Shown here one piece after another: positions 42,755 through 56,970 of a DNA stretch of 63,745 nucleotides (positions are counted from its first letter, which is position 1; the number at the start of each line of letters is the position of its first letter). Position numbers and translations under genes: made by a program. Under the pieces are notes generated by a model. It did no database searches. It saw only the letters and a list, made by a program, of their open reading frames with translations, and was not told the origin of the DNA. Origin of the DNA: a virus; the IMG/VR virus record IMGVR_UViG_3300046723_000060, positions 1-63,745 of that record; one strand, given 5' to 3'.

Positions 42755-42909
42755 GCTACGATCCGAAATGCAGAGACTTAGCAGAGTATTTTCTGGCTGA
42801 TGAAGAACATTCGCAAGAAGAAGTCACATGGTTAGCGCAAGAGATACAGGATTCAATCGAACGTTGGTTTGAGCCGCGAGAATCAAGACCAAAAGATGTA
42901 ACGCCATGA
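42751..42909 (+). CDS. 52-residue MSYDPKC paralogue
   Basis: ATGA overlap with the previous gene. Product MSYDPKCRDLAEYFLADEE, then EEVTWLAQEIQDSIERWFEP. It is a paralogue of the N-terminal part of the gene at 41964 but lacks its zinc ribbon. Helical, unknown role. Confidence 0.65.
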   Translation: MSYDPKCRDLAEYFLADEEHSQEEVTWLAQEIQDSIERWFEPRESRPKDVTP

Positions 42910-42956
42910 GCAGCGCTGGTGGTGAAGCAGTATCTGAAGTGGAAACGGAAAGAAAT

Positions 42957-43712
42957 ATGATTTACGTAGCTTTTGGCGGGGGCATCAACTCAACAGCTAT
43001 GTTAGTAGGAATGTTACAGCGCGGATTTTGGCAACGTGCAATTTGGCCTAAATGGGTTGTTTTTGCCGATACAGGAGGAGAGAAACCGGAAACATATCGT
43101 CATGTGGATTTGGTAGAACAATGGCTTAAAGATACTGGAGATTTGGAACTCCATCGAGTTAAGAAGGATTCCATGTATGAAAGTCTGGAAGATGAGTGCT
43201 TGCGAAATAATACTCTCCCCGCGCTCGCATTCGGATGGCGATCTTGCTCTGACAAGTGGAAACAGGCTCCGCAGCAGAAGTTTATGAATCACGACGAACA
43301 GGCGAAGGAGATTTGGGCGTCTGGCGGCAAGATTATAAAGGCTATCGGCTTTGGCGTAGATGAGCTACATAGAGCCAAGCCTTATGAAGACGAAAAGTAC
43401 CGCAACTGGTATCCACTAATTGACTGGAAATGGAACCGAAACGATTGCATCGAAGCAATCAAGCGAGCAGGACTGCCAGTTCCACCTAAAAGTAGCTGTT
43501 TCTATTGTCCCGCTATGCGGAAGTCAGAGATTGTACAACTCTCGAAAGATAACCCCGCACTCTACGCTCGCGCTCTAGCGATGGAAGAAAACGCAACAGC
43601 GGCGCATACGATCAAGGGATTAGGCAGGTCATTTTCGTGGAAGGAATTAGTTGGGCCGGAAGTGATCGAACAAGTTTGCATGTGTTTTGATGGAGAGTGC
43701 AGCAGTATCTGA
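42957..43712 (+). CDS. PAPS-reductase/ATP-pyrophosphatase-like enzyme
   Basis: A 251-residue protein of the PAPS reductase / DndC-like adenine nucleotide alpha-hydrolase superfamily. It starts MIYVAFGGGINSTAMLVGML, a variant of the S-G-G-x-D-S PP-loop (GGGINST), followed by VVFADTGGEKPETYRHVDLVEQW. Near the C-terminus PPKSSCFYCPAMRKSEI resembles the C-x-x-C-P region seen in phage and DndC-type members. Reactions in this class include sulfur transfer and base thiolation. A longer start at 42906 reads through a relic of the 42409 gene tail, so I prefer 42957. Confidence 0.75.
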   Translation: MIYVAFGGGINSTAMLVGMLQRGFWQRAIWPKWVVFADTGGEKPETYRHVDLVEQWLKDTGDLELHRVKKDSMYESLEDECLRNNTLPALAFGWRSCSDKWKQAPQQKFMNHDEQAKEIWASGGKIIKAIGFGVDELHRAKPYEDEKYRNWYPLIDWKWNRNDCIEAIKRAGLPVPPKSSCFYCPAMRKSEIVQLSKDNPALYARALAMEENATAAHTIKGLGRSFSWKELVGPEVIEQVCMCFDGECSSI

Positions 43713-47458: not shown

Positions 47459-47853
47459 TTAAATTCGAGTTCTTCGTAGCAGGTGTCCCTCAAAGTAAGC
47501 AGTACAGACAAACTAAGTTTGGAGTCATTTACAGTAAGGGAAAAGTAGTCGCTTGGGAGAAAGCAATAGCCATGGCAGCGCTAGTAGCAGCGGGAGCAGG
47601 ATATAAGGCGGCAATAGGAGCGTGTTCGTTGTGGCTGGACTTCTACTTTCCTATCCCCAAGTCACGTAAGGAGCTTACACCCGGTATGCCGCACTTGCAG
47701 GACCCTGATACCACGAACTTGCTGAAGGCTGCCGAGGACGGCCTGAAACGAGTGTTGTTCGTGGATGACAACCTAGTGTGGAGAACGATGTGTAGTAAAG
47801 CGTGGTGTGAGGCGGGGAAAGAGGGAGTACAGGTAGTGGTGACCATAGAATGA
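47455..47853 (+). CDS. rusA: RusA-type Holliday junction resolvase
   Basis: A 132-residue enzyme (GTG start, GTGA overlap). FFVAGVPQSKQYRQTKFG is the N-terminal strand, SLWLDFYFPIPKSRKEL the middle one, and LQDPDTTNLLKAAEDGLKRVLFVDDNLVWR the catalytic region, with D-P-D-x-x-N-L-x-K and V-x-D-D, exactly the RusA Asp triad. It cuts four-way junctions in replicating or packaging DNA. It lies directly before the Cas4/RecB-like nuclease. Confidence 0.92.
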   Translation: MIKFEFFVAGVPQSKQYRQTKFGVIYSKGKVVAWEKAIAMAALVAAGAGYKAAIGACSLWLDFYFPIPKSRKELTPGMPHLQDPDTTNLLKAAEDGLKRVLFVDDNLVWRTMCSKAWCEAGKEGVQVVVTIE

Positions 47854-48716
47854 AAGAGATCAGAATATCCCCGAGTCAGCTCAAGACGTGGTCAACCTGC
47901 AAGGAATTGCACCGCATCGGCTATCTCTTGAAGAAGGAAGCTATAGAACCTTCGATTCACTATCAGTTTGGCTCAGTCATTCACAAGATGGCGGAAGGTT
48001 ACTGGTCTGGCCTACCGTACATGGAATCGTTCCACAACGCTCTCAAGGTAGCTCAGGAACTGGATATCCGGTTACTCAATGCTAAGGATCAGACTAAGTG
48101 GAGTAGCTTGCAGGATGCGATAGCGCCGATTACTACTATCTATTATGGGTATCACGCAGCTACAGCCGATGCTCATCCTCCAATTATGAATGAACAGACT
48201 ATTGAATGGGAATGGGGAGAATACGCCGGCGTCAAGGTGATCTGCAACGGAATCATCGACAGGCTGTCACACGATGGCAAGTTAATCGACACCAAGACCG
48301 CCTCGGCTGTTGGCTATACTTGGAAAGCTGATCTTAAAAAACGGTTGCTCCGTGAGCCTCAGATGGGTTTCTATCTACGGCATCTGTATCTAAACGAACC
48401 TGTCAAGCTCACTGGTATCGAATACGAAATCATCGTCAAGCCCTACCGCGGCTCTGATCCCCGTATCGAGACTATCGACGTTACCGACGAAGTGATGAGT
48501 TTCCAAGAAACATTCCGACAACAAATGGATTGGGCTATTCGTGAGATTTGCACGTTTTACGCAAACTGTCTTGAAGCACAACCTTGGCCGATGTCATCCA
48601 CAGCCTGTGTTGGAATGTTTGGTGAATGCAGCTACTTGCCAGTTTGTCTAGGGAAAACAACTCTCGACAATGAGAAACTTTATCGGATTAAGTTGGAAAA
48701 GGAGATTGAAGTTTGA
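47850..48716 (+). CDS. Cas4/RecB-like PD-(D/E)XK nuclease
   Basis: A 288-residue exonuclease. SPSQLKTWSTCKEL supplies the first cysteine (about 17), FGSVIHKMAEGYW the G-x-x-x-H motif near 45, and CNGIIDRLSHDGKLIDTKTA the catalytic D137 ... D147-x-K149. Near the C-terminus three cysteines (STACVGMFGECSYLPVC) complete a 1+3 pattern typical of a 4Fe-4S cluster in Cas4/AddB. It would process DNA ends for the RecT-like annealing protein downstream. The stop abuts the pentamer array. Confidence 0.9.
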   Translation: MKEIRISPSQLKTWSTCKELHRIGYLLKKEAIEPSIHYQFGSVIHKMAEGYWSGLPYMESFHNALKVAQELDIRLLNAKDQTKWSSLQDAIAPITTIYYGYHAATADAHPPIMNEQTIEWEWGEYAGVKVICNGIIDRLSHDGKLIDTKTASAVGYTWKADLKKRLLREPQMGFYLRHLYLNEPVKLTGIEYEIIVKPYRGSDPRIETIDVTDEVMSFQETFRQQMDWAIREICTFYANCLEAQPWPMSSTACVGMFGECSYLPVCLGKTTLDNEKLYRIKLEKEIEV

Positions 48717-49015
48717 TTGGTCAGGTCTGGTGTGGCTTGGTATGGTCAGGCCAGGCATGGAGAGGTTGGGTCTGATACGGCGTGGTAAGCAGAGGTTTGG
48801 TGCGGTGAGATAGGGAAAGCAATGGCAAGGCCGGGTCTGGTTAGGCTCGGCTTGGTCAGGCGAGGCGCGGTGCGGTTAGGCATGGCTAGGATTGGTCTGG
48901 TGCGGAACGGTAAGGTCAGGCGAGGACGGGCAAGGTGGTGCAAGCAGAGGTAAGGCGCCGCAGTGTTAGGCGGGACAAGGTGCGGTTCGGCAAGCTCAGG
49001 TAAGGCTAGGCATGG
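48716..49015 (+). repeat. HNNGG pentamer array: 60 in-phase units
   Basis: A 300-base stretch divides without any insertion or deletion into 60 five-base units. G is at position 4 in 57 of 60 and at position 5 in 53 of 60; both are G in 50. Position 1 is never G (29 T, 22 C, 9 A). Positions 2-3 vary freely, so this is a periodic pattern rather than a copied repeat. Four of the seven position-5 exceptions end AAGC. It begins on the stop codon of the nuclease and ends 25 bases before the next start. No convincing gene lies inside. Confidence 0.95.
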
Positions 49016-49040
49016 GATTCTTTAAACGGAGGCAACCGAA

Positions 49041-49649
49041 ATGGCAACAACATTAGTTCCTGAACTGAACGCAGTGAGCAATGACGCAAAGTCGTCAATC
49101 GTCGAGCCCTACGTGGCCGAGGTTGACATCCAAGGTGTAACTGCGTTTCTGTTCCATCGTTGGTCGGTAGACGGAGTGGAAGCCAAGGCCAACGCGGCTA
49201 AGGGTAGTAAAGCTAAGAAGTCTGATGACATTGAGTCATATGTGTATCGACTGGACGATGGAAACTTAGCTATTCCATCAGAGTATCTACGGATGGCGAT
49301 TATCGGCGCTGCCAAGTTTAAGCAGGATCCTCGCTCGCCGCGCAAGAGTGCGATGGATTTGTTCAAGGCAGGACTGACATGCCTTGATGAACTGTGTGAC
49401 CTTGGAACCAAAGATTGGGATTACGTTGACCGCCGCAGAGTTCAAGTACAACGTAACGCGATTACCCGCTCGCGGCCTGCGCTAAAGGTGGGATGGAAGA
49501 TTTCAGTGCGGTTACAAGTACTCTTACCGGAGTACATTAATCCAGACATGTTGAATGATGCAGTACAGTCGGCTGGAAGATTGATTGGGATTGGTGACTT
49601 CCGTCCCACCTTTGGAAGGTATCAAGTCACTGGATTCAGGATTGAATAA
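49041..49649 (+). CDS. Possible RAMP/Cas7-fold protein of the recombination module
   Basis: A 202-residue protein with CGGAGGCAACC as ribosome-binding site. Segments: VAEVDIQGVTAFLFHRWSVDGV, then YRLDDGNLAIPSEYLRMAIIGAAKF, KISVRLQVLLPEYINPDMLNDAV and at the end GRLIGIGDFRPTFGRYQVTGF. The IPSEYLRMAI block resembles the substrate-ring start, and the G-x-G-D-x-R-x-x-x-G-R-Y block the Gly-rich C-terminal loop, of RAMP/Cas7-like RNA- or DNA-binding proteins (inference, low). The Lys/Ala-rich insert (KANAAKGSKAKK) could be a flexible thumb. It sits between the pentamer array and the RecT-like gene. Confidence 0.5.
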   Translation: MATTLVPELNAVSNDAKSSIVEPYVAEVDIQGVTAFLFHRWSVDGVEAKANAAKGSKAKKSDDIESYVYRLDDGNLAIPSEYLRMAIIGAAKFKQDPRSPRKSAMDLFKAGLTCLDELCDLGTKDWDYVDRRRVQVQRNAITRSRPALKVGWKISVRLQVLLPEYINPDMLNDAVQSAGRLIGIGDFRPTFGRYQVTGFRIE

Positions 49650-49694
49650 ACGAGTTTACGGCCCTCGACCGTATCGAGGTAAAAGGAGATGAAC

Positions 49695-50435
49695 ATGAAC
49701 GAGACACAGCTGGATCTGGCACAACAACTGAAGGCTGAGTTTGAGAAGAATGAGCCTAAGCCTGCACCTAATCAGGCCATCCTGGAGTTACAGAAGCAGG
49801 CTACTCAAGTTCAGCAAGAATCCAAGATGAAACAGTGGTCGGGACTCTCCGGTTACAGCTATCAGGAGATTGGCATCGTCAAGATGGCTGAGCTGTATTA
49901 CTCCATGAACTGGGGCTGGACGGTACCGCAATCTATCCTTATGGCTATCCACTGTGCCAAGTTTGATTACAAAGTAGACCCGGCTGAAGGGCATGTCTAT
50001 ATGACACCAGCTGGGAGAATTGGAACCTCACTTGAGGGCTTGAAGATCAAATCTGAACACAAGGGAATGAAGATCGGGCATCCCAAGTTTGATGAAGTTA
50101 CTCGGCCTTGGCCACAAGGTAAGTTTCTGCAAGTAAAAGGTCAAGACAGGATTAAGCGCGAAGCTACTATGGAACAGGACCAAGGAGTGAAATGCACGCT
50201 GGTTATAAACGATGAGCCCATAGAATACACAGCTTGGGCCAGCGAGTGGATGGTTGGTACCAATCCTAACTGGGTAGAGAAGCCTATGCACATGTTGAGA
50301 GTCAGAGCTGAAATGCACTGCATCAAGTTTGCTACTGGGATAGGAGTGAGTGAAGAGTTGGTTGATTCCGTACCTTCTACTGAGCCCGTCAGGCAGGAGC
50401 CTAAAGCTCCCAAGGAAACTCCGTTTGTGAGGTAG
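49695..50435 (+). CDS. RecT-like ssDNA-annealing protein
   Basis: Start chosen at the second ATG (49695), six bases after AAAAGGAG; the first is too close. The 246-residue product has QQLKAEFEKNEPKPAPNQAILELQKQATQ as an N-terminal helical arm, then GIVKMAELYYSMNWGWTVPQSILMAIHCAKF and GHVYMTPAGRIGTSLEGLKIKSEHKG. Later, VEKPMHMLRVRAEMHCIKFATGIGVSEELVD matches the R-x-x-x-L-x-x-x-F end block of RecT-type recombinases. It probably anneals ssDNA made by the nuclease at 47850. Family assignment is by pattern and neighbours. Confidence 0.6.
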   Translation: MNETQLDLAQQLKAEFEKNEPKPAPNQAILELQKQATQVQQESKMKQWSGLSGYSYQEIGIVKMAELYYSMNWGWTVPQSILMAIHCAKFDYKVDPAEGHVYMTPAGRIGTSLEGLKIKSEHKGMKIGHPKFDEVTRPWPQGKFLQVKGQDRIKREATMEQDQGVKCTLVINDEPIEYTAWASEWMVGTNPNWVEKPMHMLRVRAEMHCIKFATGIGVSEELVDSVPSTEPVRQEPKAPKETPFVR

Positions 50436-55631: not shown

Positions 55632-55981
55632 TCTCCTTTAGGTGGGATGGGAACTTGGGCCTGAGCTTCGGCAATGGCGCCACCGGCTTTAGCGGTAGCA
55701 TCAGCGGCAACTTGCAAGGTCTGTTGCAACTTATCCGGTGCTCCATGAAGCTGCAGGAACTCGAACATGCGATAGCCGCCCTGGAACAGGAACATGACGC
55801 CCATGAGCTTCAGTGTATTGCCAACACTGTTGCTGAGATTGAACTTATCCGGCGCAATGCCAATCGAGGTGAGACCACTAACCATAGCCGCCGAACCACC
55901 GCTGATAAACGACCTGAAGATGCCTAATAGCCAAGTTGACCAATCGTAAGTCCTGGCATTCACAACTGCAGTAAGAGTCAT
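55628..55981 (-). CDS. Holin-like membrane protein
   Basis: A 117-residue protein with two or three hydrophobic segments: TWLLGIFRSFISGGSAAMVSGLTSIG (amphipathic, Gly/Ser-rich) and TLKLMGVMFLFQGGYRMFEFLQ, then a Pro/Lys-rich end (AQAQVPIPPKGE). The DWSTWLLGxxRSFISGG start is a pattern I associate with small phage membrane proteins of unknown function. It is ATGA-coupled to the nuclease-like gene upstream. Confidence 0.65.
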   Translation of the reverse strand: MTLTAVVNARTYDWSTWLLGIFRSFISGGSAAMVSGLTSIGIAPDKFNLSNSVGNTLKLMGVMFLFQGGYRMFEFLQLHGAPDKLQQTLQVAADATAKAGGAIAEAQAQVPIPPKGE

Positions 55982-56970
55982 CGGACTGGGACCTCCGTAT
56001 GGGAACCACTGTATATTGCCTTTCGAGGGACGTAAAGCGATAGTTGTGTAAGGTCAACCGGCTCAGCAACGTGGCACACACTTTGGAAATGGCACGGTGA
56101 ATACAAGTCGCACGCCCCTCTACTCATCGGCTCAGCGATATACGGCCGGCGCTCCTCAATCAATCTCATCATGTCTGAGGCTTCCCTAATCAACTGATAC
56201 TTGGTATCACGGATGACATTCTCTAGCGGTAACTCCACTTGCTGGTCCTGCAACAACGGTTGTATCGCTCCCTGCTTCCATGCCTGATCTATCCACTCAT
56301 CTACATCCAATCTATGCTGGTCGAGCAACTGTACAGGCTTCCAGTTGGTATCCTCCGGCTTAACCCACTTCCAATGAACGTTAGGTATGCCGGGATGAAC
56401 ATAAGCTCTAGTCCATGGAGAGAGAAATCTCGCATTCCTGTTCTGGCCTAACACGATCGCATGGAGTACCAACGGGCAGCCCGACATAACGAGGTCCCCA
56501 AAGGTACGCCACGAATGAAGCTCACGCGAGATGGTGTCATCGTCCCACGACTCAACCGTAACCCATCGGTGTAGAGTGCCCGCATCATCAGCCCAAGATA
56601 GGAACTTCCAGTCGATCTCAGAGGTCAGCCTCGCTGGTTCAGGATCATGCAGCACAGGTAGTACTGTCTTAGCTACTCCATGCAGCACGGATTCAAGCAG
56701 CGATGTCCAACCCTTAGACGCTTGGTAAGGATCCTTACCAATGATATCTAACCCAGGATCAGCTGCTCGTTGTAAGAATACAGACTTAGCATCAGCGGCT
56801 ACCTCAGCCACATCCTTCTGCTTGGTGAGTTCAAGGATTCCACGACGAAGGAGAAGGTCAAAAAGAGTTTTAGGACGAAATCTGGCCAGTCGCCATTCTG
56901 AATTGAGAAGGAAACGACGCTTGCAGGTCTGGAAATCGCCAAGAGACGCCGCATCAACGGTGAACTTCAT
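55978..56970 (-). CDS. Degenerate RecB/Cas4-like protein
   Basis: A 330-residue protein resembling PD-(D/E)XK nucleases with an Fe-S cluster. The N-terminus DAASLGDFQTCKRRFLLNSEW matches the first Cys segment (Cys16), and RGACDLYSPCHFQSVC near 295-305 gives the other three cysteines. But the core reads EIDWKFLSWADDAGT...VTVESWDDD: the second acid-x-Lys pair is replaced by ESW, and the G-x-x-x-H motif is also changed (RRGILEL). It may have lost cutting and kept a structural or DNA-binding role. Unusually it lies in the lysis/ejection operon. Confidence 0.55.
   Translation of the reverse strand: MKFTVDAASLGDFQTCKRRFLLNSEWRLARFRPKTLFDLLLRRGILELTKQKDVAEVAADAKSVFLQRAADPGLDIIGKDPYQASKGWTSLLESVLHGVAKTVLPVLHDPEPARLTSEIDWKFLSWADDAGTLHRWVTVESWDDDTISRELHSWRTFGDLVMSGCPLVLHAIVLGQNRNARFLSPWTRAYVHPGIPNVHWKWVKPEDTNWKPVQLLDQHRLDVDEWIDQAWKQGAIQPLLQDQQVELPLENVIRDTKYQLIREASDMMRLIEERRPYIAEPMSRGACDLYSPCHFQSVCHVAEPVDLTQLSLYVPRKAIYSGSHTEVPVR

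Follow-up and report, generated by a model that had tools for sequence, protein, structure and literature searches.

A viral tract of sixty in-phase YNNGG units is very probably a guide-RNA gene of a VIPR system

Introduction

What kind of function preserves a five-base pattern through sixty consecutive units, when two positions in every five are left almost free to vary? The question is raised by a tract at 48716-49015 (plus strand) of a virus genome, the IMG/VR record IMGVR_UViG_3300046723_000060. We analysed positions 1 to 63,745 of this record, and we refer to that whole stretch of 63,745 nucleotides as the window. The original prediction described the tract as an array of HNNGG pentamers beside recombination genes, and it offered several ideas about its role, among them sites for recombination or replication proteins and a site for a protein filament phased on five bases.

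According to the main text of a preprint (2026, PMC13142463), Escherichia phage SUSP1 carries a system called VIPR (Viral Interference Programmable Repeat). In that account the phage RAMP protein Vipr, studied experimentally in SUSP1, binds RNAs (vrRNAs) composed of 9-16 YNNGG repeats, and the NN dinucleotides of these RNAs pair with double-stranded DNA, one base being skipped each time. The same text defines VIPR by the combination of Vipr and the GGY/NN code, reports ‘staggered arrays with overlapping vrRNAs’ and array architectures that vary between types, and proposes VIPR as a forerunner of CRISPR.

Results

The phase and composition of the tract

A recount gives 60 five-base units in one phase, without a slip. 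The first position of the unit is T in 29 units, C in 22 and A in 9, and never G; that is, it is a pyrimidine in 51/60 units, with A replacing the pyrimidine in the other nine. G occupies position 4 in 57/60 units and position 5 in 53/60, and the full GG is missing in 10 units. All of the counts in the original prediction are thereby reproduced. The entropy of positions 2 and 3 is 1.98 and 1.82 bits, as against 0.33 and 0.63 bits for positions 4 and 5, and the binomial probabilities at the local G content are 3e-27 and 1e-21. When the window is shuffled, by letter or by a Markov-1 procedure, the in-phase tract score reaches at most 6, compared with 60 for the array itself. Both strands of the window were scanned for a second GG-period tract, and none was found. 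The motif is better written GGY/NN than HNNGG.

The first unit overlaps the stop codon of the gene directly upstream, as had been noted originally. This gene (47850-48716, plus strand) encodes a PD-(D/E)XK exonuclease (Pfam PDDEXK_1, E 1.6e-14). At its other end, the array is separated by 25 nt (49016-49040, plus strand) from the start of a RAMP-like gene. This spacer contains a ribosome-binding site, GGAGG, at 49028-49032, and it may also serve as the 3' tail of a guide RNA; we recognised no conserved structured tail within these 25 nt. A search of Rfam returned no RNA family for the array. Since promoter and terminator consensus sequences occur near the array no more often than chance predicts, the nuclease gene, the array and the RAMP-like gene probably share a single transcript.

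The gene downstream of the array

The RAMP-like gene (49041-49649, plus strand) encodes 202 amino acids, and it belongs to the same family, phrog_4652, as the Vipr of SUSP1 (E 1.4e-96 for SUSP1 Vipr). The two proteins are about 20% identical. A profile built from the window's own clade alone finds SUSP1 Vipr with E 6.5e-13. An AlphaFold2 model of the window protein (pLDDT 90.9) has its best fold matches in Csm3 and type VII Cas7 (Foldseek E 8e-7, Z 12.8). The glycine-rich loop GxGDxRPxxGR, which is conserved in Vipr, is present near the C-terminus as AGRLIGIGDFRPTFGRYQV. Judged by its profile matches and predicted fold, the gene is a Vipr homologue, and we refer to it below as vipr. The original prediction had rightly singled out this RAMP-like neighbour, which proves to be the constant partner of such arrays.

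Arrays in other loci follow vipr and its strand

We searched viral DNA for stretches containing 12 consecutive GGNNN, a pattern that makes no reference to proteins. Among the matches listed, 80 of the 120 viral stretches chosen in this way encode a Vipr homologue. Conversely, 18 viral relatives of Vipr were found by protein alone, and in all 18 a GG-period tract, if sometimes only a short one, lies close to the gene on its strand; the tract is strong in 11 of them. In one locus, L135, the strongest GG-period tract lies on the strand opposite to vipr. In the combined viral set, again among the matches listed, 256 arrays lie on the strand of vipr versus 8 on the opposite strand, with 197 downstream of the gene and 59 upstream. 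In bacterial loci the array is on the vipr strand in 29/32 cases, and on the other strand in 0/32.

Most of the arrays found are 10-19 units long, and their 3' ends vary from clade to clade; a hammerhead ribozyme was detected by Rfam in none of 15 related loci. Across all arrays of at least 12 units, the second G of GG is defective 279 times and the first G 120 times. The first G is thus kept more strictly than the second.

Association with vipr bears directly on the proposal that the tract is a site in DNA at which recombination or replication proteins act, such as a Chi-like sequence, a loading site for an annealing protein, an origin or a G-quadruplex. The immediate surroundings of the tract are compatible with such a role: an exonuclease gene adjoins it, the gene directly downstream of vipr (49689-50435, plus strand) is weakly Bet/RecT-like (phrog_252, E 0.07), and the Sak4, RecT, exonuclease and RusA families are frequent, if variable, among neighbours within the window's Vipr clade. 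The ‘RecT-like’ label of the original prediction thus stands only to the extent of that weak Bet-like match. However, it is vipr that accompanies the arrays constantly, and no recombination gene does so. The window exonuclease has no detectable homologue in any other fetched locus, the Bet/RecT-like protein has none in the other fetched loci or in phage records, and RecT is present in 3/20 records of the clade, some of which are fragments. A recombination site would further lead us to expect, in complete genomes, arrays without vipr that always lie beside recombination genes, and the opposite pattern is seen. Of the co-occurrence that the original prediction proposed to examine, the strand bias is real, and it follows vipr across unrelated elements; the link to RecT is not borne out. 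We consider a recombination or replication site highly improbable, and we read the recombination-gene setting as a common location for early genes rather than as a sign of function.

Conserved GGY and hypervariable NN

Two sister contigs, L141 and L143, are 85.6% identical and carry six arrays each. In these arrays the GG positions are 94-100% identical, versus 25-47% for NN, where chance is 25%. The tails that follow the arrays, which are clear in these contigs, are 89-98% identical in five of six cases and 58% identical in the sixth. The drift foreseen in the original prediction, with GG kept and N changing, is therefore what the sister contigs display.

The closest Vipr to that of the window, at 78% identity, is encoded by phage L111, whose arrays are 59 and 53 units long, the first of them beginning at the stop codon of a nuclease gene. 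Between the window and L111 the vipr DNA is 71.6% identical, and the arrays do not align; their NN agreement is no better than that of shuffled arrays. GGY is conserved, and NN is hypervariable.

A further explanation, that the tract codes for protein or is a functionless product of slippage, is contradicted by several observations. There is one 65-aa open frame on the minus strand, but stops occur in all three plus frames. Slippage would leave units that resemble their neighbours, whereas adjacent units of the window array are unlike each other, NN is near random, and no NN stretch of at least 3 units is repeated within the array. Nor would a functionless repeat keep GG between relatives as NN changes. 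We regard this alternative as almost certainly wrong, in agreement with the earlier argument that strict phase together with free N positions reflects selection rather than slippage.

The one-base-skip code in related arrays

In order to ask whether NN dinucleotides spell out DNA targets, we decoded all arrays and searched all of the fetched DNA, with array regions masked. Low-complexity arrays and contigs were removed or masked beforehand, as an unmasked search is swamped by them. Six controls were provided by other skips and by reversed guides. With a one-base skip, 7 distinct guides score at least 18; the corresponding numbers for the controls are 0, 0, 1, 1, 2 and 1.

The array of L335, for example, agrees with 24-25/28 bases of a ParB-like gene carried by five sister elements; the match is in frame, and the skipped base is the wobble base. 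The copy of this gene in L335 itself has diverged. A weaker match leads from the L117 array to an HNH-like gene in L021. The L048 array matches L138 and L142, and the L136 array matches L084 (antisense), in each case at Sak4-type genes beside other vipr genes; with scores of only 16-17, some of these Sak4-type matches may be due to chance.

Two longer guides could be followed further. The 22-unit array of L337 agrees with helicase genes at 36/44 positions over its whole length, and its last nine units are perfect. For the 30-unit array of L341, a search with the decoded peptide led to a gene family with products of 172 aa in related genomes (E 4.3e-4 in one of them). The residues of this peptide were chosen by eye between options, and the DNA count is independent of that choice: units 1-25 match at 41/50 positions, and the whole array at 44/60 in three homologues. 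For both arrays, agreement at these loci falls to chance level when other spacings are used. Each array matches one contiguous stretch of a gene in frame, unbroken over 22 units in L337 and 25 in L341. Because the mismatches are many (8/44 and 16/60), the true targets are probably genes related to those matched here. No convincing target emerged for the guides of L344 and L348; peptide searches were thus successful for two of the four long Planctomycete guides tried.

The matches to genes of other elements also speak to a further possibility, that an array in the leader of vipr is mainly a regulatory or decoy site, at which Vipr binds its own messenger and limits its translation. The position of the window array is suggestive in this respect, since 25 nt, including the ribosome-binding site, separate it from the start of vipr, and it has no promoter consensus of its own. 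Yet related arrays lie more often downstream of vipr than upstream (by the counts given above, among the matches listed), their NN positions change fast as GG stays, and guides of the clade match genes elsewhere. Regulation of this kind is very unlikely to be the main role of the array, and it could occur as a side effect.

Candidate targets of the window array

Six segments of the window array, each of 8 units and read as NNxNNx, served as exact seeds for scans of viral contigs (units 3-10, 13-20, 24-31, 33-40, 41-48 and 53-60). Each seed yielded 6-60 matches, whose numbers and extensions look like chance. The two best candidates are units 22-31, which match at 20/20 positions in a pair of homologous phages and place the skip outside the wobble position, and units 38-48, which match at 21/22, in frame, in a gene for a KHERKGNEK-type protein. 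Neither was accepted as a target. The decoded 60-aa peptides have no match in phage records, PHROGs or Pfam.

Discussion

The counts and shuffles, the homology and fold of Vipr, the association of arrays with vipr, the constancy of GG beside changing NN, and the one-base-skip matches of arrays in the same Vipr clade together lead us to conclude that the window array is very probably the vrRNA gene of a VIPR system, and that the next gene encodes its Vipr. The ‘free’ NN positions of the array are best read as carrying the guide information.

We infer the array's transcription, its binding to the window's own Vipr, the repression and the target as follows. The tract would be copied into RNA, probably within the nuclease-array-vipr transcript. 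Vipr subunits would then align along this RNA, one per five bases, each gripping GGY and presenting NN. The successive NN pairs would read double-stranded DNA as NNxNNx, where the skipped base usually coincides with the wobble position of a codon, and the bound filament would repress a gene in a rival phage or mobile element. The early idea of a protein filament phased on five bases fits Vipr on GGY/NN RNA.

The window resembles the SUSP1 system in having a homologous Vipr with a YNNGG array beside its gene on the same strand, and in the one-base-skip matches seen within the window's Vipr clade. It differs in that its array comprises 60 uninterrupted units, versus the 9-16 repeats per guide given in the main text of PMC13142463. 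We therefore count the window as a variant of VIPR, and since that text defines VIPR by Vipr and the GGY/NN code, we treat the difference in length as one between variants rather than as grounds for exclusion. SUSP1, in the same account, makes four separate RNAs with conserved structured tails, whereas the window has one tract, upstream of vipr. VIPR also has an accessory gene, vap, and no accessory gene is recognised in the window; the array and vipr are flanked by the exonuclease gene and the weakly Bet/RecT-like gene, the latter a candidate accessory gene by position only.

Closer comparisons come from within the clade. Phage L111 shares the long arrays, the Vipr clade and the array start on a nuclease stop. 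The Planctomycete (Phycisphaerae) loci, in the range L335-L348, encode Vipr proteins of the same clade at 56-59% identity, and they differ in lying on bacterial contigs, usually with two or three shorter arrays, several of which are followed by hairpin-like tails.

In class 1 CRISPR effectors, protein subunits line the RNA as a filament that leaves bases unpaired at regular intervals. The window Vipr model has the fold of their Csm3/Cas7 backbone (types III-A and VII). Unlike class 1 CRISPR, the window has no CRISPR repeats and spacers; neighbouring proteins of the array gave no match to cas genes in Pfam or PADLOC; and the array uses a five-base unit with two reading bases where CRISPR uses a contiguous spacer.

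How, then, should sixty units be read? They may form one continuous guide, on which a filament of about 60 Vipr subunits would read about 180 bp of a rival's gene; we assign this reading a little less than an even chance. In its favour, the matches of L337 and L341 extend over the whole or most of the array, so that arrays well above 16 units do follow one gene stretch. Alternatively, the tract may be a VIPR array made up of several separate or overlapping guides of roughly 9-16 units that keep to a single phase, to which we likewise give slightly under one chance in two. Published guides of 9-16 repeats and the staggered, overlapping vrRNAs reported in the main text of PMC13142463 are consistent with several guides, as are the 10-19 units of most arrays found, the internal in-phase duplications of the long arrays L096, L099 and L016, and the arrays of L335, L117 and L136, where just 10-15 units of a longer tract fit the target found. 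Against several guides, the window array is nowhere interrupted by a slip of phase, a tail or a recurring NN stretch, and the L337 and L341 matches run unbroken over 22 and 25 units.

If the array is one long guide, then a domain-sized stretch of a gene would be stored as the first two letters of each of its codons, and synonymous changes could not free the target. On our reading of the array as a vrRNA gene, the locus would add to VIPR a clade of phages whose guide arrays are very long and unbroken, and whose relatives' guides of 22-30 units decode directly into genes of other elements. An odd repeat would thereby become a readable record of which elements compete. It raises two testable questions, namely how long a gapped RNA guide can be, and whether mismatches are tolerated in greater number by long guides.

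Other observations

Stretches of roughly 8-13 units are duplicated in phase inside the long GGY/NN arrays at L099 4851-5145, L096 1085-1459 and L016 6308-7012, which suggests that arrays grow by in-phase duplication. At L009 895-1327, arrays of 10-15 units abut one another with shifted phase, most of them with a GCAGG start; they possibly correspond to the staggered arrays reported in the main text of PMC13142463, and Vipr was not found in the 2.3 kb fetched. At L095 5150-5399, where vipr was not found, a 50-unit GG-phased tract is an almost exact 10-base repeat (TCCGGCCAGG) with little NN variety. One contig of the cyanobacterium Stenomitos rutilans carries two vipr copies about 100 kb apart (L338 and L339); no array above threshold lies beside either, and the consensus there may differ.

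Within the window, a gene at 55978-56970 (minus strand), with no Pfam or PHROG match, looks by eye like a possible second Cas4/RecB-like nuclease, with the start DFQTCKRRFLLN and a Cys near its C-terminus. At 42906-43712 (plus strand) the window carries an SspD-like gene (PAPS-reductase-like, of DNA phosphorothioation defence; PADLOC E 3e-16).
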